Positions 10,836 through 32,250 of a stretch of DNA of 45,680 nt are shown piece after piece. The position numbers were made by a program, and so were the translations under genes. This DNA is from an uncultured Bacteroidales bacterium (GTDB lineage Bacteria > Bacteroidota > Bacteroidia > Bacteroidales > FEN-979), in the NCBI GenBank assembly GCA_903929315.1, contig CAIYUC010000229.1, positions 1 to 45,680 of the forward strand, read 5' to 3'. Position 1 is the stretch's first letter. Every line of letters begins with the position of its first letter. Below the pieces are notes generated by a model. The model ran no database searches. It was not told where the DNA came from and saw nothing but the letters and a program-made list of their open reading frames with translations.

Positions 10836-11547
10836 AATTCAGTCCTTTGACATTCGGTTTTCCGGCAATAAAATCCTTCAGGTAAAAGGGTTCGAAATAC
10901 GCCAGGTCTTCAAATTCTTTTCTAACATATCTATCTTCCGCGAGAGTAACCATATATTGTGCCGAGGCATTGAATTCATCAATAAAAATAGCATTTTCCT
11001 GTGATTTCAATACCTCACGGCATTTCGGGGTTCCATCTCCTCCGAAAATAATGGTATGACCTGCCAGGATATCCGAAAAAGAATCTTCCCAAATGATCTC
11101 TGCGCATGTTTCACGGATTTCATTGCCGTTGAAATCATAAAGAGCATAATAAACTTCCATCCGCCTGGCATCGATCATAGGACAGAAGAGAATCATGTTA
11201 TCCCATGCTGATTGCCGGATGCCTGATGCCATAGCCTGCAATGTAGGGACAGCTATCAATGGTTTATCCAATGCATAGCACAAACCTTTTGCCGTTGCAA
11301 CGCCAATCCTTAACCCTGTATAAGAACCCGGGCCCTCGCTGACTGCAATGGCATCAATGGCTGAAAGATCCAGGTTTGAAGATTTTAGTACCTCGTCGAT
11401 GAATCGTGTGATAACCGTAGCATGGATGTTCCTGATGGTGGATTCCCTCAATGACAGCAACTGCCCGTCACCGGCCAGTGCTATGGAGCATACATTTGTG
11501 GCGGTTTCGATATGTAAAATAAAAGACATGGAGTCGCGACCGGTCAT
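10822..11547 (-). CDS. tsaB: tRNA threonylcarbamoyladenosine biosynthesis protein TsaB
   Basis: A 241-residue ASKHA-fold protein that partners TsaD and TsaE in making the t6A modification at position 37 of ANN-decoding tRNAs. Typical motifs are L-H-I-E-T-A-T near the start and S-E-G-P-G-S-Y-T-G-L-R-I-G in the first third, then P-T-L-Q-A-M-A and P-M-I-D-A-R-R-M-E-V-Y. The start overlaps the stop of the upstream macA-like gene in an ATGA, suggesting translational coupling; M-S-F-I-L-H-I-E at 11529 is an alternative start. The loop A-S-G-I-R-Q-S-A between two conserved segments is encoded by three heptamer units. The 3' end overlaps msrBA convergently. Confidence 0.92.
   Translation of the reverse strand: MTGRDSMSFILHIETATNVCSIALAGDGQLLSLRESTIRNIHATVITRFIDEVLKSSNLDLSAIDAIAVSEGPGSYTGLRIGVATAKGLCYALDKPLIAVPTLQAMASGIRQSAWDNMILFCPMIDARRMEVYYALYDFNGNEIRETCAEIIWEDSFSDILAGHTIIFGGDGTPKCREVLKSQENAIFIDEFNASAQYMVTLAEDRYVRKEFEDLAYFEPFYLKDFIAGKPNVKGLNFKTS
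11213..11233. repeat. In-frame TGCCTGA heptamer array inside tsaB
   Basis: Three 7-bp units TGCCGGA/TGCCTGA/TGCCATA (21 bp). On the coding strand they read GGCATCA/GGCATCC-like, the same unit as the array in the GT9 gene at 43198-43267, and both encode an S-G-I-R segment. Confidence 0.6.
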
Positions 11548-12920
11548 TCCTTGGTGAAGAGATCCATCTTATCAACCTTGATAACCTTGTCGCCTTCCTT
11601 CAGCAGTTTAGATACAGCCGAATAGGGTCCGACAATGATTTCCTGGCCTTCTTTCAGCCCGGATAATATCCGGATGTAGGTATTATCCTGGATCCCTGTT
11701 TTAACATTGACTTTCTTTGCAGTACCATTCTCAAAAAGGAATACGCATTCCTGGAGTTCGGCCGCTTTTTTAGAAGAGGCCACAAACTCATGGTCATTAT
11801 CACCACCTGATGGTTTCTGCTTTTTCTTGGCATTCATTTTATCGAGGGTATCTTTGGTTGCTCTTGTAGTTACAGCCTGAATAGGCAGGGTCAAGGCATC
11901 CTTCGCTGTTTCCGTCTGGATTTCAACGGTTGCAGACATACCCGGACGGAAAGGTGAATAATTCGGGATCTTCGGATTCAGAAGATCTGCATAAGAATCT
12001 TTTACAAGATGGATCTTCACATTGAAATTGGTCACCTGGTCAACGCTGACACCTGTCGTATTGGCAGATGTCGCCATTTCTGTTACCACACCTTTAAATT
12101 TACGGTTGAGGTAAGCATCTACTTCCACCAACGCCGTATCGCCCATACTTACACGGACGATATCGTTTTCATTTACTTCTACCTGTGCTTCCATTTCATT
12201 GAGGTTGGCGATACGCATGATCTCGGTGCCACTGGAGAACTGTGAAGCACCGGTGACCCGCTCTCCTTTTTCAACACTTAATTTGGAAACCGTACCATTG
12301 CTCGGGGAGAAAATAGCAGTTCGTGTCAGGTCTTCCCTGGCTCTTTTCAAACCTGCTTCAGAACTCTTCACCATAAATTCCCCGGCTTTGATATCCTGTT
12401 CGGCTGCATCAACCTGGGCTTTAGCCACATCGAATGCAGATTTTGACTGGTCAAATTCAGCCTGGGAAATGACATTCTGCTTGAATAATTTTTCCTGCCG
12501 TTCATAATTCAATCGTGCGTTTTCAAATTGTGCTTTCATCTGGGAAAGCCGTGCACGGGCATTGGCAGTATTCGCCTGCTGGGAGTTCAATGATGCGACA
12601 CTCTGGTCATAGGCGGAAATGTAAATTTCAGGATCGATCTTGGCCAGCAGATCCCCTGATTTGACCTCATCACCTTCCTTGACATATAACTCCACGACTT
12701 CTCCGGAAATATAAGGACTGATCTTTATATCTTTCTCAGGCTGGATTTTTCCATTTGCAGAAACAGTTTGGATGATGGTCCTTTTTGTGACCTTTTCCGT
12801 GGTCACTTTTATCCCTTCATTCCGTTTGCCTTTGAAAATTGCAATAACGACAATGATAATGACGATCACTATGCTCCCGATAATGATCCAATTCCGTTTT
12901 TTCGATTTCTTTGAGGTCAT
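11544..12920 (-). CDS. Efflux periplasmic adaptor (MacA/HlyD-like membrane fusion protein)
   Basis: A 458-residue membrane fusion protein. Residues 10-30 form one N-terminal transmembrane anchor (I-I-G-S-I-V-I-V-I-I-I-V-V-I-A-I). The biotinyl-lipoyl half motif with G-K-I-Q-P and S-G-E-V-V-E-L-Y-V-K-E-G-D-E-V-K-S-G-D-L-L-A follows at about 55-95. A long alpha-helical hairpin lies at about 95-205, then beta-barrel and membrane-proximal domains. It bridges an inner-membrane ABC (MacB-type) permease and TolC. The tolC gene is immediately upstream (18 nt gap), but the ATP-binding/permease genes usually found next to it are absent; tsaB takes that place. Confidence 0.87.
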   Translation of the reverse strand: MTSKKSKKRNWIIIGSIVIVIIIVVIAIFKGKRNEGIKVTTEKVTKRTIIQTVSANGKIQPEKDIKISPYISGEVVELYVKEGDEVKSGDLLAKIDPEIYISAYDQSVASLNSQQANTANARARLSQMKAQFENARLNYERQEKLFKQNVISQAEFDQSKSAFDVAKAQVDAAEQDIKAGEFMVKSSEAGLKRAREDLTRTAIFSPSNGTVSKLSVEKGERVTGASQFSSGTEIMRIANLNEMEAQVEVNENDIVRVSMGDTALVEVDAYLNRKFKGVVTEMATSANTTGVSVDQVTNFNVKIHLVKDSYADLLNPKIPNYSPFRPGMSATVEIQTETAKDALTLPIQAVTTRATKDTLDKMNAKKKQKPSGGDNDHEFVASSKKAAELQECVFLFENGTAKKVNVKTGIQDNTYIRILSGLKEGQEIIVGPYSAVSKLLKEGDKVIKVDKMDLFTKE

Positions 12921-12938
12921 GGAGAGGTGGAAATTATT

Positions 12939-14390
12939 TTATTGGTTAATGCTGATGGGTTTACCCATATAGAAATTAAGAATGGTAGTTTTGAAAATAA
13001 AATCATATTTAGCCTGTAACAAGTCCGATTGTGATTTGATGAGGTCCTTTTTGCTGTTATTAAAATCAAACGAAGTTAACATTCCCACATCAAATTTCTC
13101 CTGTGTATATTTGAATGATTCCTGCTGGGCCTCTACCTGTATCACTGAGGAATTATATTTCTTTAATGAAGCTACAGCATCAGCATAAGCTTGTTCGATG
13201 CTTTTAAGAAGATCTCTCTTTTGGATGTCGAGATTGACTTCTGCCTTGTCTCTTTGTATTTTTGCCTGTGCAATTGCGGTACGACCCTGCCAGCCATTAA
13301 AAATAGGAATGCGCAGGTTGAACCCAAGAGATTTGTAATCGTTTGAAGAGATCTGATCGGAAAACGACTTCACGCGGTACGGATAATTTACATAGGGGGC
13401 CATAACAATCTCATGCGTTGTTTGCGTATATCCGACTGGATAATAAGTAGTATCGGGGGGTAGATTGGGATTTATCTCCTTCGATGCTCCGGAATAACCT
13501 GTTCCCCAGGAAGCGCCGACACTTAGTGTAGGTGATATCGAACCTCTTGCGATGGCAAGGTTCTTTTCATAACTTTTGACCCTTAGTTCGGCAGCTTTGA
13601 TCTCCGGTCTGTTCATTACTGCATAGGCAAACATCTGGTCGGGGGTAAAAAGTTCCTTTGGCGCTTCAACCGATTTCAAAGCAGGTTTTTCGATAACAAA
13701 ATCCTTTGCAACGGGAAGATCAATCAATTGCTGCAATGAAAGGCTGGAAATATTCAGGATGTTTTCTGCCGAGACCACGGCAAGCTCTTCAGTTGCAGCC
13801 TCTGCCTGAATGTTCAGTAAATCCCCTTTGGCGGAAGAACCGGCTTCAACTCTTTTTCCGATCCTTGAAACCTGGTCTTGTGTGACCGTTATTTGTGCAC
13901 GGGCTACCTCAAGTAATTCGGCATTCAGCAATATATCCAGGTAATAACCGGCTACTGCGAGGGAGATATTGTTCCGTAACACGTCAAGATCATAGTTACT
14001 TGCCAGGATATTGATCCGGTTTTGCTTTACCGTGTTTAATTTTGTAAACCCGTTGAAAAGGGTCATACTCGTTGCAATATAAAAGTTGTCAGAGCGTACC
14101 GTTGTCGTTGCAAAGGTATTTGTGTAAAGGTCGATCGTCTGACCAAAGTTCCAGGTATTGGTTCCACTGGCGTTAAGATCCGGCAACATGCTGAGAGCGC
14201 TTTGCAATAGTTGTTTTTTGTTCGTCTCTACGGTCAATACCTGGTTCTTGATATCGAGGTTATTGGTAAGAGCCCAATTGATACAGTCTTCGAGTGTCCA
14301 GATTTTTTGTCCGACAGATGCAGTTATGGTACATAGTAAAAGGAACAGCATCAGTATTCTTCTGTATGCTTTAATATCTTTGTTGTACAT
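12939..14390 (-). CDS. TolC-family outer membrane efflux protein
   Basis: A 483-residue outer membrane channel subunit, the usual TolC-family length. It has a signal peptide (about residues 10-27, ending S-V-G-Q), then W-T-L-E-D-C-I-N-W-A-L-T-N-N-L-D-I, the characteristic opening of OEP repeats in Bacteroidota. Two repeated OEP halves with long helices follow (A-x-x-Q-R-D-K-A-E-V-N-L in the second). It is the first gene of a tolC-macA-tsaB operon on the minus strand and has a TAATTTTG promoter box upstream. It probably works with the adaptor encoded directly downstream. Confidence 0.88.
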   Translation of the reverse strand: MYNKDIKAYRRILMLFLLLCTITASVGQKIWTLEDCINWALTNNLDIKNQVLTVETNKKQLLQSALSMLPDLNASGTNTWNFGQTIDLYTNTFATTTVRSDNFYIATSMTLFNGFTKLNTVKQNRINILASNYDLDVLRNNISLAVAGYYLDILLNAELLEVARAQITVTQDQVSRIGKRVEAGSSAKGDLLNIQAEAATEELAVVSAENILNISSLSLQQLIDLPVAKDFVIEKPALKSVEAPKELFTPDQMFAYAVMNRPEIKAAELRVKSYEKNLAIARGSISPTLSVGASWGTGYSGASKEINPNLPPDTTYYPVGYTQTTHEIVMAPYVNYPYRVKSFSDQISSNDYKSLGFNLRIPIFNGWQGRTAIAQAKIQRDKAEVNLDIQKRDLLKSIEQAYADAVASLKKYNSSVIQVEAQQESFKYTQEKFDVGMLTSFDFNNSKKDLIKSQSDLLQAKYDFIFKTTILNFYMGKPISINQ

Positions 14391-14999: not shown

Positions 15000-15045
15000 C
15001 ACCACTTTTTTTTTGAGTAATAAAAATTCGCTAACCGAATCCCGC

Positions 15046-16189
15046 ATGCACGGTCGCAGAAATCTTGTAAAATACTTGTTTATTGCTTTCTTTTTCCTTT
15101 CATATCAGTTGGTATTTCCAAAGGTGCAGGAGGGGACTAATCTTATCCCTACCGATACTGCGAATGAAAAGCAAAGGGAAAATAAAACAGCAGGATCTTC
15201 AAAATTTGATGCAGGTAAAATGATCCTGGAGCATGTCACAGATACACACGATTGGCATATTTTCACTTTGGGTACAACGAATATCACGATTCCTCTTCCG
15301 GTTATTTTCATTTATGATGGGCAGATCTATTCATTTTGGAGCAGTAAATTCCATAACTCCAGCCATGCATACAAAGGCTTCTCGATCGCTGAAGAAGGTC
15401 CCGGCAAAGGGAAAATCGTCAAACTGAAGACAGACAAAATGGGAGGAACAAATCCGGCTGTTTATGATTTTTCAATCACGAAGACCGTTTTTGCAATATT
15501 ATTCAGCAGCATCGTTTTGATCATTATTTTCATGACGGTAGCCAATGCATACCGGAGTAATAAGGGCCAGGCGCCAAAGGGATTACAGAATGCAATGGAA
15601 CCGCTAATACTGTTTGTCCGTGACGATGTTGCAAAAAGCTCTATAGGGGAAAAGAGATACGAAAAATATGTTCCCTATCTTCTGACGATCTTCTTCTTTA
15701 TCTTATTCAATAATTTGATCGGGATCATCCCGATTTTCCCCGGAGGAGCAAATGTTACGGGAAATATTGCCGTTACGGGTGTGATGGCTGCATGTACCCT
15801 GATCATTACCACTTTTAGTGGTAACAGGCATTACTGGGTGGATATTATCAATACTCCCGGCGTTCCGTGGTGGTTGAAGATCCCCGTTCCCCTGATGCCC
15901 GTTGTGGAGCTCCTCAGCGTGCTTACAAAACCATTTGTATTAATGATTCGACTTTTTGCAAATATGCTGGCCGGACATATCGTGGTCCTGAGCTTTATCA
16001 GCATTATATTTATTTTTGGCGCTATGGCCGCCTCTCTTGGTTATGGAGTTTCTATCGTTTCCCTGCTGTTCATGGTTTTTATGGATCTGCTCGAAGTGCT
16101 TATTGCACTCATCCAGGCATATGTCTTTACATTGTTATCGGCATTGTACTTTGGTCTGGCATCCGCCGAACCGGAACACCATAAGCAAT

Positions 16190-26786: not shown

Positions 26787-27839
26787 ATGAATAAGCAATT
26801 GGTTTACTTGTTTTTTTTACTATTATTTCCAATTCTTTTCAGTTCCTGTCATCCGGGAGCAAAAGGTAAGGACAAGGATACTAAACGTCCGAATAGCATA
26901 TCCTTTGTAGAGGGGTTTGTTGTGAAACCAACGGTTTTGGATCAGACGGTTATGGTTTCCGGAACCCTGAAATCTTTTGAAGAAACTGTACTGATGCCGG
27001 ATGTGGCAGGTCGTGTAGTAGTGATTAATTTACCGGAAGGTAAATTTGTAAAAAAAGGAACCTTACTGGTAAAATTGTTTGATGATGACCTGAAAGCAGG
27101 TCTTAAAAAACTGCAAACCCAGTTACAAATTGCGGAGCAGACGAAAAAACGACAAAGCGAATTGCTGAAAGTGAGTGGAATAAGTCAATTGGAATATGAC
27201 CAAACGGATTTACAGGTACACTCTATCCTGGATGACATCGAAGTGTTGAAAGCCCAGATAAGCAAGACAGAAATCGTTGCCCCGTTCGACGGTATAATAG
27301 GATTACGGAATGTCAGCGTGGGCGCCCAGGTAACCCCTTCCATAGCGCTTGCCACGATTCGCATGGTCAATGAACTGAAGCTGGATTTCAGTGTACCGGA
27401 AAAATACGGTAAAGAAATCAAGGAAGGTAAGAAAGTTAAATTTACCGTTCAGGGAGATGAAACAAAATATGAAGCAGAAGTGATGGCAAGTGAAGAAGGG
27501 ATCGATGCAAGCACCCGGAATCTCAAAGTCAGGGCTGTTGTGAAAACCAATCAAGCTTCATTGAAACCGGGGGCTTTTGCTAATGTGGAACTGGCATTAA
27601 GCGAAAAGAAAAATGCATTGATGATCCCTACCCAGGCGGTCATTCCTTCGGAACGTGATAAGCAAGTGATCATAGTTAAAAATAGAAAGGCAAAATTTGT
27701 CACTGTGAAAACCGGGGTACGGCAGGCCTCGACCCTGGAAGTATTGGAAGGACTTGAACCCGGAGATACTGTGGTAACAACGGGATTACTTTTTATTAAA
27801 CCGAAAGTCGAAGTGAAATTCTCAAAAGTTGTAAAATAA
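26787..27839 (+). CDS. RND efflux periplasmic adaptor (membrane fusion lipoprotein)
   Basis: A 350-residue lipoprotein adaptor. The signal ends L-F-S-S-C (Cys21), so it is anchored by lipid. The lipoyl halves appear as V-M-V-S-G-T-L-K-S and D-V-A-G-R-V-V-V-I-N-L-P-E-G-K-F-V-K-K-G-T-L-L-V-K-L (about 55-100). The helical hairpin is short (about 100-150), followed by A-P-F-D-G-I-I-G-L-R-N-V-S-V-G-A, a signature of MdtA/AcrA-type adaptors. It links the RND pump encoded 6 nt downstream with the TolC protein of the same operon. Substrates are probably drugs or other toxic compounds. Confidence 0.9.
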   Translation: MNKQLVYLFFLLLFPILFSSCHPGAKGKDKDTKRPNSISFVEGFVVKPTVLDQTVMVSGTLKSFEETVLMPDVAGRVVVINLPEGKFVKKGTLLVKLFDDDLKAGLKKLQTQLQIAEQTKKRQSELLKVSGISQLEYDQTDLQVHSILDDIEVLKAQISKTEIVAPFDGIIGLRNVSVGAQVTPSIALATIRMVNELKLDFSVPEKYGKEIKEGKKVKFTVQGDETKYEAEVMASEEGIDASTRNLKVRAVVKTNQASLKPGAFANVELALSEKKNALMIPTQAVIPSERDKQVIIVKNRKAKFVTVKTGVRQASTLEVLEGLEPGDTVVTTGLLFIKPKVEVKFSKVVK

Positions 27840-30800: not shown

Positions 30801-30944
30801 GGAATTGTTGTTGTGGGAGGATTGTTTTTTTCACTGATACTTACTTTGTTTGTTATTCCGTCAATGTATGTTTTAATGGCAAGTAAAAAGGAAAAGCAAA
30901 TAATTATCGATGAGCATGTTGAAGGACAGCTAATAACAAAATGA
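27846..30944 (+). CDS. RND multidrug efflux permease (HAE1/AcrB-like)
   Basis: A 1032-residue inner-membrane proton antiporter with the two-fold RND layout: one N-terminal helix (opening F-A-I-K-R-P-V-A-S-I-V-M-S), a periplasmic domain, six helices, a second periplasmic domain and five helices. The proton-relay aspartates Asp401 and Asp402 are in L-V-V-D-D-G-I-V-V-T-E-N-I. The late motif R-L-R-P-I-L-M-T-S-L-A-T-V-F-G-A-L-P is typical of the HAE1 class. Length matches AcrB (about 1050). It is the second gene of an adaptor-pump-tolC operon and ends 6 nt before the tolC ATG. Confidence 0.95.
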   Translation: MTISDFAIKRPVASIVMSLIIVLFGIVGYTFLGIRLYPAIDPPTINVQTNYTGANADIIESQVTEPLEKAINGIEGVRSIASSSSTGNSNITVEFNVGADLEKAANDVRDKTSQASRSLPQDIDAPPVVTKADANSDPIITLAIQSTTMNALELSDYSENVLQEKLQTIPGVSAVGLYGQKRPAMRLWLDPEKMAAYNITAEDVNNALQKENVDLPGGKVRGNNTELIVKTYGRLVTEEEFSNIIIRQANDQIIRFSDIGEAILGPENIETGVNMNGAEGITLVLIPLPGANDIEIANEFYKRFDDIQKNLPPGLKLTVGFDKSMFVRQSVKDVGETLAIAISLVVLIVFLFFRNWIIALRPLIDIPVSLIGAFFIMYLAGFSVNILTLLGIVLATGLVVDDGIVVTENIFKKIELGMDKWQAAFAGTREILFAVISTSLTLAIVFIPVIFLQGFTGRLFREFGVVVAGAVLISAFVSLTLTPVLNVKLGGSLSRHSRFSTATEPFFVNLDKGYRRLLSYFMKRKFASFLILGICLILIFVLGKTLKSELAPLEDHSIIRANLTLPEGTDYDFTANLINRIVQCEMDSIPEARLVAGRIAPGMVATNTNIGSLQTFLTQPGERKATQQQIYDKLIRLYKRFPEARIIPNQEQTISTSLSAGSQLPVQFVLQNLDFSKLEQFLPKFLEEARKDSVFSNVDVNLKFNKPELNLTVDRLKATNLGVNVLDVSNTLDFALTGRRYGYFLRNEKQYYVIGQVDRDSRSAPADVTALYVRSNNGNMIQLDNLIKMEENSEPPTLYHYNRYKSATVSASLAQGRTLGEGIEEMKRIAKKVLDGTFQTALLGPSRDFAESSSNTSFALVLALVLIYLILAAQFESFRDPFIIMLTVPLAIAGAMLTLWVFGQTLNIFSEIGMILLIGLVTKNGILIVEFANQKRKKGLNKDEAAFEAAAARLRPILMTSLATVFGALPIALALGEGAHSRVPLGIVVVGGLFFSLILTLFVIPSMYVLMASKKEKQIIIDEHVEGQLITK

Positions 30945-30950
30945 ATTTTA

Positions 30951-32250
30951 ATGAAGAAAATTTTTTTTTTCAATTCCGGTTATTTTCCTCTCCTTTTCTT
31001 TTTCTCATGCCCAGAAGCTGCTGAACCCGGATGAAGCCATAAGCATCGCCCTGAAAAATAATTATGATATCCTGGTTGCCCGTACTGCAGCAGATATAGC
31101 TAAAGTAAATAATACTGCCGGGAATGCCGGTATGTTACCAACAGTAGGAATTACAGGTTCCGATATCTACAACATAAATAATGTTAACCAGAATCTTTCA
31201 AATGGAAGCCAGATTACATCCTCCAACGCGGATGCAAATACATTTAATGCGGGTGTTGCCCTTGACTGGACCCTGTTTGATGGAGGAAAGATGTTTATTA
31301 CAAAGAAGAAATTAAATGAAATTGAAGCCTTAGGCGAAGTCCAGTACAAGGATAAAGTGATGCAGACAATGTATGATGTTACCGTTGCTTATTTTAATGT
31401 GGTAAAGCAGAAACAACAGCTCGAATCGTTTAATGAGGTGATCAATTATAACCGTGAAAGGGTAAAAATCCTTCAGGCGAGCTTTAATGCGGGTCTTTCA
31501 CCTAAAACAGATCTTTTACAGGCACAAATCGATTTGAATGTTTACCTGGAAAATTCAATCGACCAGCAAACGGTGATAATTACAACAAAAAGAACCTTGA
31601 ATCAATTAATGAATATGGATACTGATGCGCCTTTTGACGTGGAAGATTCCATTGTCCTCAATTACATCCCGGATAAAAATGAATTGATTAAAAAATTATT
31701 TTCCACCAATACCAGTGTGTTGTCATTGCAGAAGCAGGTAGATATAGCCAGATTAAGCCTGAAAGAATTTAACACCATGCGATTCCCGATAATAAATGTT
31801 TCTGCCGGTTACGATTTTTTGCAGAGTCGTAATTCTGCGGGAACCGTAACATCGAATCGTACCTATGGGCCGCAGTTAGGGGGAACCATTACTATCCCCC
31901 TTTATGAGGCGGGAAACATTAACAGGCAAATTAAATCTGCAAGACTTGGGTTTCAATCTGCCGGGTATGCTTTGGAAAGTATAAAACGGGATGTGAATAC
32001 ACAATTGCAAAATGCATTGACTGAATATGAAAACCAGCAACAATTGTTAAAAATAGAAAGAGATAATACGGCTCTGGTTAAAGAAAACCTGGATATTTCG
32101 ATGCAACGCCTGCGATTGGGCCAAACGACCTCCCTGGAAGTACGACAAGCGCAGGAGAGCTATGAAGATTCCCATACCCGCCTCATCAATTTTGAATATA
32201 ACACCAAAGTTGCCGAGACAAAGCTAAAACAGCTCCTGGCTGCATTATAA
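30951..32250 (+). CDS. TolC-family outer membrane protein with a frameshift in a T10 run
   Basis: The intended product is about 432 residues. From ATG 30951 the reading frame runs through ten T (30961-30970) and then stops early at a TGA near 31030. With nine T the same ATG gives M-K-K-I-F-F-S-I-P-V-I-F-L-S-F-S-F-S-H-A-Q, a proper signal peptide, and continues into L-N-P-D-E-A-I-S-I-A-L-K-N-N-Y and the rest of the TolC family protein. The 372-residue open frame starting at 31132 lacks the signal peptide and first helix. So this is either a phase-variable gene, a gene rescued by slippage on the homopolymer, or a sequencing error. The rest is intact, ending in the second OEP repeat. It is third in the RND operon. 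Confidence 0.82.
30961..30970 (+). repeat. T10 homopolymer that breaks the tolC frame
   Basis: Ten T residues follow ATGAAGAAAA directly. One T fewer, or two more, restores the signal peptide and the downstream tolC frame. Such a run near a 5' end is the classic shape of a slipped-strand switch, but it is also a common site of sequencing error. Confidence 0.8.

Follow-up and report, generated by a model that had tools for sequence, protein, structure and literature searches.

In the assembled sequence of an uncultured Bacteroidales bacterium, a ten-T run breaks the reading frame at the start of a tolC gene in an RND efflux operon

The stretch of DNA analyzed here (the window; 45,680 nucleotides from an uncultured Bacteroidales bacterium) carries three adjacent genes on the same strand, encoding a membrane fusion protein, an RND transporter, and a TolC-type OEP, which together make up a HlyD-RND-OEP tripartite efflux operon (Table 1). 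The distance of 6 bases between the RND stop and the tolC ATG lies within the range of 5 to 13 bases found in nine relatives (L003 to L011). One copy of this tolC locus was found in the assembly.

Table 1. Features of the RND efflux operon around the T10 run (positions in the window)
Feature	Position	Strand	Basis
HlyD/CusB-type membrane fusion protein gene, intact	26787..27839	+	ORF; PF16576 and PF13437
AcrB-type RND transporter gene, intact, 1032 aa	27846..30944	+	ORF; PF00873, E 6.5e-285
Alternative start ATG within ATGA, shared with the RND stop	30941..30943	+	Read from the letters; eleven T needed to put it in the tolC frame
tolC start ATG, 6 bases past the RND stop	30951..30953	+	Sequence reading
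27-codon product and stop from ATG 30951 with ten T	30951..31034	+	Translation
T10 run within signal-peptide codons, where the frame is lost	30961..30970	+	Exact letters
tolC/OEP body frame, stop-free, no usable start before 31132	30955..32250	+	ORF; PF02321 (OEP), E 2.5e-51

The run at the 5' end of tolC consists of exactly ten T. With this length, translation from the ATG at 30951 yields 27 residues, MKKIFFFNSGYFPLLFFFSCPEAAEPG, and then reaches a stop. The tolC body lies in another frame, which follows a TGA at 30952 to 30954, is open from 30955 up to the stop codon ending at 32250, and contains no ATG, GTG, or TTG before the ATG at 31132. Removal of one T joins the ATG at 30951 to the body, with the protein-level read-through MKKIFFSIPVIFLSFSFSHAQKLLN. 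The resulting signal peptide has 22 residues up to QK, equal in length to those of three relatives (L003, L004, and L005), and has serine at −3 and alanine at −1 relative to the likely cleavage site, the two positions addressed by the signal-peptide cleavage rule. The frame break at the tolC start is thus confirmed as a genuine feature of the assembled sequence. The original prediction had rightly placed the run in signal-peptide codons, and had stated that nine or twelve T restore the frame, which is right for the ATG at 30951; at eleven T, it is the ATG at 30941 that would be joined to the body. The length of the homopolymer sets the frame, as in slipped-strand phase-variable genes.

Downstream of the run the gene shows no decay. 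The body of 429 codons contains no stops, and its divergence was compared across five relatives by dN alone, since dS was saturated in most pairs and dN/dS could not be used. Relative to the outgroup G036, dN is 0.315 here versus 0.346 for G010 and 0.361 for G001, both of which have intact genes; relative to G018, it is 0.270 here versus 0.314 and 0.332, respectively. Since the body has no stop and does not exceed the intact relatives in dN, any loss would be recent. The gene is otherwise intact and, as judged from dN, constrained, a further property of slipped-strand phase-variable genes. The disconnected start could also mark a pseudogene on its way out, but this is highly improbable given that no other lesion occurs in the 429 codons, that dN is not raised, and that the neighboring operon genes are intact.

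The same site was compared in 97 relative loci, 90 of which matched at an E value of 1e-20 and 27 of which were distinct with at least 50% identity. None of these 27 homologues has a run of at least eight bases between −20 and +75 of the tolC start, the longest being seven. All 27 present an ATG near the expected start. An open frame of 400 codons or more is present in 26 of them; in the remaining one (L006) the break lies within the gene, next to undetermined bases, and the start is unaffected. In L005 the residues IFFS are encoded as ATT TTC TTT TCT, without a run. Among more distant loci, only two have an eight-base run near the start: L078 (Flavobacterium cauense, 32% identical) has an in-frame T8 within its signal-peptide codons, and L049 has an A8 upstream of its ATG. 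The case of L078 shows that T runs do arise at the tolC start elsewhere, and this counts against our own reading. The conserved out-of-frame arrangement expected of programmed transcriptional slippage was not found, as the ATG is in frame with the body in all 27 homologues.

An evolved phase-variation switch, in which run length is maintained to flip tolC reversibly and give mixed populations, was the main proposal of the original prediction, and the comparison of related genomes that it suggested as a check turned out unfavorable to it. The run does occupy signal-peptide codons in a gene for a surface protein, the gene body is preserved, 5' poly(A) and poly(T) tracts are reported to be preferentially placed and hypermutable (PMC2831843), and another T10, on contig 44, is likewise placed in signal-peptide codons, there in frame. 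However, close relatives should also carry the run if it were maintained for switching, and they do not: the tract is kept in 0 of 27 homologues, L005 encodes the same residues without one, and only L078 and L049 approach it farther away. Moreover, shuffled sequences average 2.05 T10 matches against the one in the window, and at least one occurs in 76 of 100 shuffles, so that the presence of the run is not above chance and is notable only for the frame break that it causes. No length variants were seen, the locus having one copy in the assembly. Long T runs are simply hypermutable, and ON/OFF switching at this site is unsupported and, in our judgment, unlikely.

The explanation that we favor, at close to even confidence, is a chance slippage allele, T9 to T10, in an ordinary functional tolC gene in which the hypermutable run is incidental. 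The sequenced population, or its majority, would carry an allele one base longer, produced by replication slippage and revertible by the same process. With ten T probably present in the DNA, translation would end after 27 codons and the pump would lose its outer-membrane channel. This explanation is supported by the other long runs of the assembly, most of which are in frame; against it, a miscount during assembly explains the same letters, and the species is represented by one assembly.

Such an allele would probably leak and not be shut off completely, since poly(T) makes bacterial RNA polymerase slip, one-base deletions included. In Escherichia coli, deletions by RNA polymerase brought a +1 reporter back into frame at 10% on poly(T8), but not on poly(A) (PMC6260861). 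Transcripts may accordingly be mixed in length, with a minority in frame through polymerase slippage giving low TolC expression, provided that the polymerase of Bacteroidales acts like that of E. coli. The likeness to this non-programmed slippage is that a one-base deletion restores the frame and predicts leaky expression, whereas the E. coli observations were made on reporter constructs and not with a Bacteroidetes polymerase (PMC6260861). The suggestion in the original prediction of a low constant level from slipping RNA polymerase is sound. Ribosomal frameshifting was also considered; with ten T it would have to be a +1 shift. Many bacteria are reported to select against runs of at least nine bases in coding regions (PMC1088944).

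The idea that the run would switch the entire drug pump is too strong: the upstream RND and HlyD genes are untouched, the window contains a second HlyD and OEP pair (11544-14390, minus strand; OEP gene at 12939-14390), distant OEP matches number three in all genome-wide, at 21 to 24% identity, and slippage on poly(T) would be expected to leave some product. A more elaborate scheme, in which the run acts as a three-state rheostat hedging the channel of one pump among full, altered, and trace expression, is very doubtful. It would assign full TolC from 30951 to nine or twelve T, a product from the ATG at 30941 with a poor, acidic N terminus to eleven T, and only a slippage trickle to ten T, where no start fits.

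Inactivation by 5' homopolymers is already known (PMC2831843), and efflux genes are known targets (PMC7431566). In farA of Neisseria gonorrhoeae, 316 of 332 predicted loss-of-function alleles are reported to be indels in a 5' T8 (PMC7431566). Both cases involve a 5' T run in an efflux-pump gene where one-base changes truncate the product, and farA is a recurrent hot spot. Unlike the present case, farA is documented by many isolates with length variants and by an association with niche (PMC7431566), whereas here there is one assembly, from another phylum, and the affected gene is the OEP gene of an RND operon. Hexarepeat deletions in gonococcal mtrC similarly abolish function through a slippage-prone repeat in a gene of an RND-pump operon, but they involve a dinucleotide repeat in the membrane fusion gene and are described with revertants and population data (PMC7431566). 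The 5' poly(A) of Listeria monocytogenes inlA likewise frameshifts to a very short peptide; it differs in being poly(A) and in that the frequency of variation was measured (PMC2831843). Among the literature matches listed, none by its title concerns a run switch of tolC in Bacteroidetes, which says little about absence.

The rival that weighs most on the chance allele is an error of assembly or consensus, in which a true run of nine T was counted as one too many, or a run of more than ten was written as ten, with tolC intact; this is a serious possibility, if short of even. The assembly is a metagenome-type draft of 244 contigs whose nearest named relative is itself a MAG, and the in-frame starts of all 27 homologues agree with an intact gene. 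For singleton frameshifted genes confirmed by homology, sequencing errors are expected over genuine indels (PMC3711429). In its 4.31 Mb the assembly contains 822 A/T runs of eight bases, 168 of nine, 29 of ten, and none above ten. By comparison, there are 67 runs longer than ten and 313 of exactly ten in 22 relatives, from which about 6.2 longer runs would be expected here (P 0.0036; Fisher 0.0076), although 3 of the 22 also lack such runs.

The behavior of the other runs was assessed by ORF length. This replaced a codon-usage test for frame switches, which was set aside for too little power: 19 of 394 runs were callable with the first settings and 59 of 394 with the second, plus one switch at L169:19417. 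The first ORF-length pass flagged 15 places, the tolC run among them, and 10 of the 14 others were inspected; one was a split gene (L160, at a C8 run), and the rest looked like ordinary gene ends or starts, save L173, L147, and L156. Of the 168 nine-base A/T runs, 109 distinct ones were examined: 57 belong to ORFs (40 internal, 12 at the start, 5 at the end), 41 lie outside, and 11 were flagged, 3 of which were explained. The ten-base runs comprise 28 distinct sequences in 29 places, one pair being identical: 9 are intact in ORFs, 14 lie outside, and 5 were flagged. Among the 16 flagged places in this genome (11 nine-base and 5 ten-base), breaks were established at tolC and L112; the run at 15006 in the window precedes the likely atpB start, L102 is an in-frame 81-codon ORF, L164:10620 and L147:1502 are apparently runs upstream of a gene, and ten other flagged places, holding small ORF fragments, were excluded from the counts of 57 and 11 given below.

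No ORF break was established among the 57 nine-base runs in ORFs, versus 2 broken ORFs among 11 ten-base runs (Fisher 0.024; small numbers, with flagged rows left out). The second of these, at L112:1501-1510 (contig 121), is an A10 whose one surplus base interrupts a small ORF, as at tolC; a second frame break upstream in that ORF means that it may be a real pseudogene. At L127:1501-1510 (contig 234), an A10 lies near the start of a 221-codon ORF without a Pfam match and with no in-frame ATG before the run; it escaped the ORF-length criterion and, if broken, adds to the ten-base breaks. The ORF preceding it is one that we take to be yajC-like. In the control genome G001 the 25 ten-base runs (3 intact internally or at starts, 3 at ends, 1 flagged, and 18 outside ORFs) are too few for a comparison of rates.

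Taken with the breaks at ten-base runs, the ceiling at ten makes a run-length artefact, including a true run longer than ten, a serious rival to the chance allele, and the caution about assembly error in the original prediction was well placed. Both patterns were noticed post hoc, and the ceiling concerns one genome among 23. A C8 on contig 66 that splits a gene, again by one extra base, points the same way, but real slippage yields the same one-base pattern. Further arguments against an error are that nine-base runs look well resolved in the same assembly and that six other ten-base runs in ORFs or at ORF starts are in frame. The ordinary case is most likely: a chance slip, or an assembly miscount, at an error-prone run and not an evolved switch. 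If the ten T are real, the gonococcal type of 5' poly(T) loss of an efflux gene extends to an uncultured Bacteroidales lineage; if not, the case shows how intact pump genes can appear broken through the homopolymer lengths of a draft assembly.

Other runs in the material presented features of their own. The T10 of contig 44 (L104) encodes MKPKLLSIFFFLSALSFGS within a 519-codon ORF. In the window, a frame break at the T9 at 15006-15014, before atpB, was considered and rejected, the likely start being the ATG at 15049 with the run upstream. The gene split by the C8 of contig 66 (L160:3431, at about 23431) encodes a C13-peptidase/beta-helix/Por-secretion-tail protein, and its two frames around the run measure 471 and 677 codons. 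Of its paralogues, one on contig 95 is open over 1143 aa, and one on contig 163 stops at a similar position without a long run; the C8 is either a poly(C) contingency locus or an error. Two relatives of this surface protein in the same-genus genome G001 (L269 and L272) contain in-frame stops or frame breaks and hold T8 and A8 runs.
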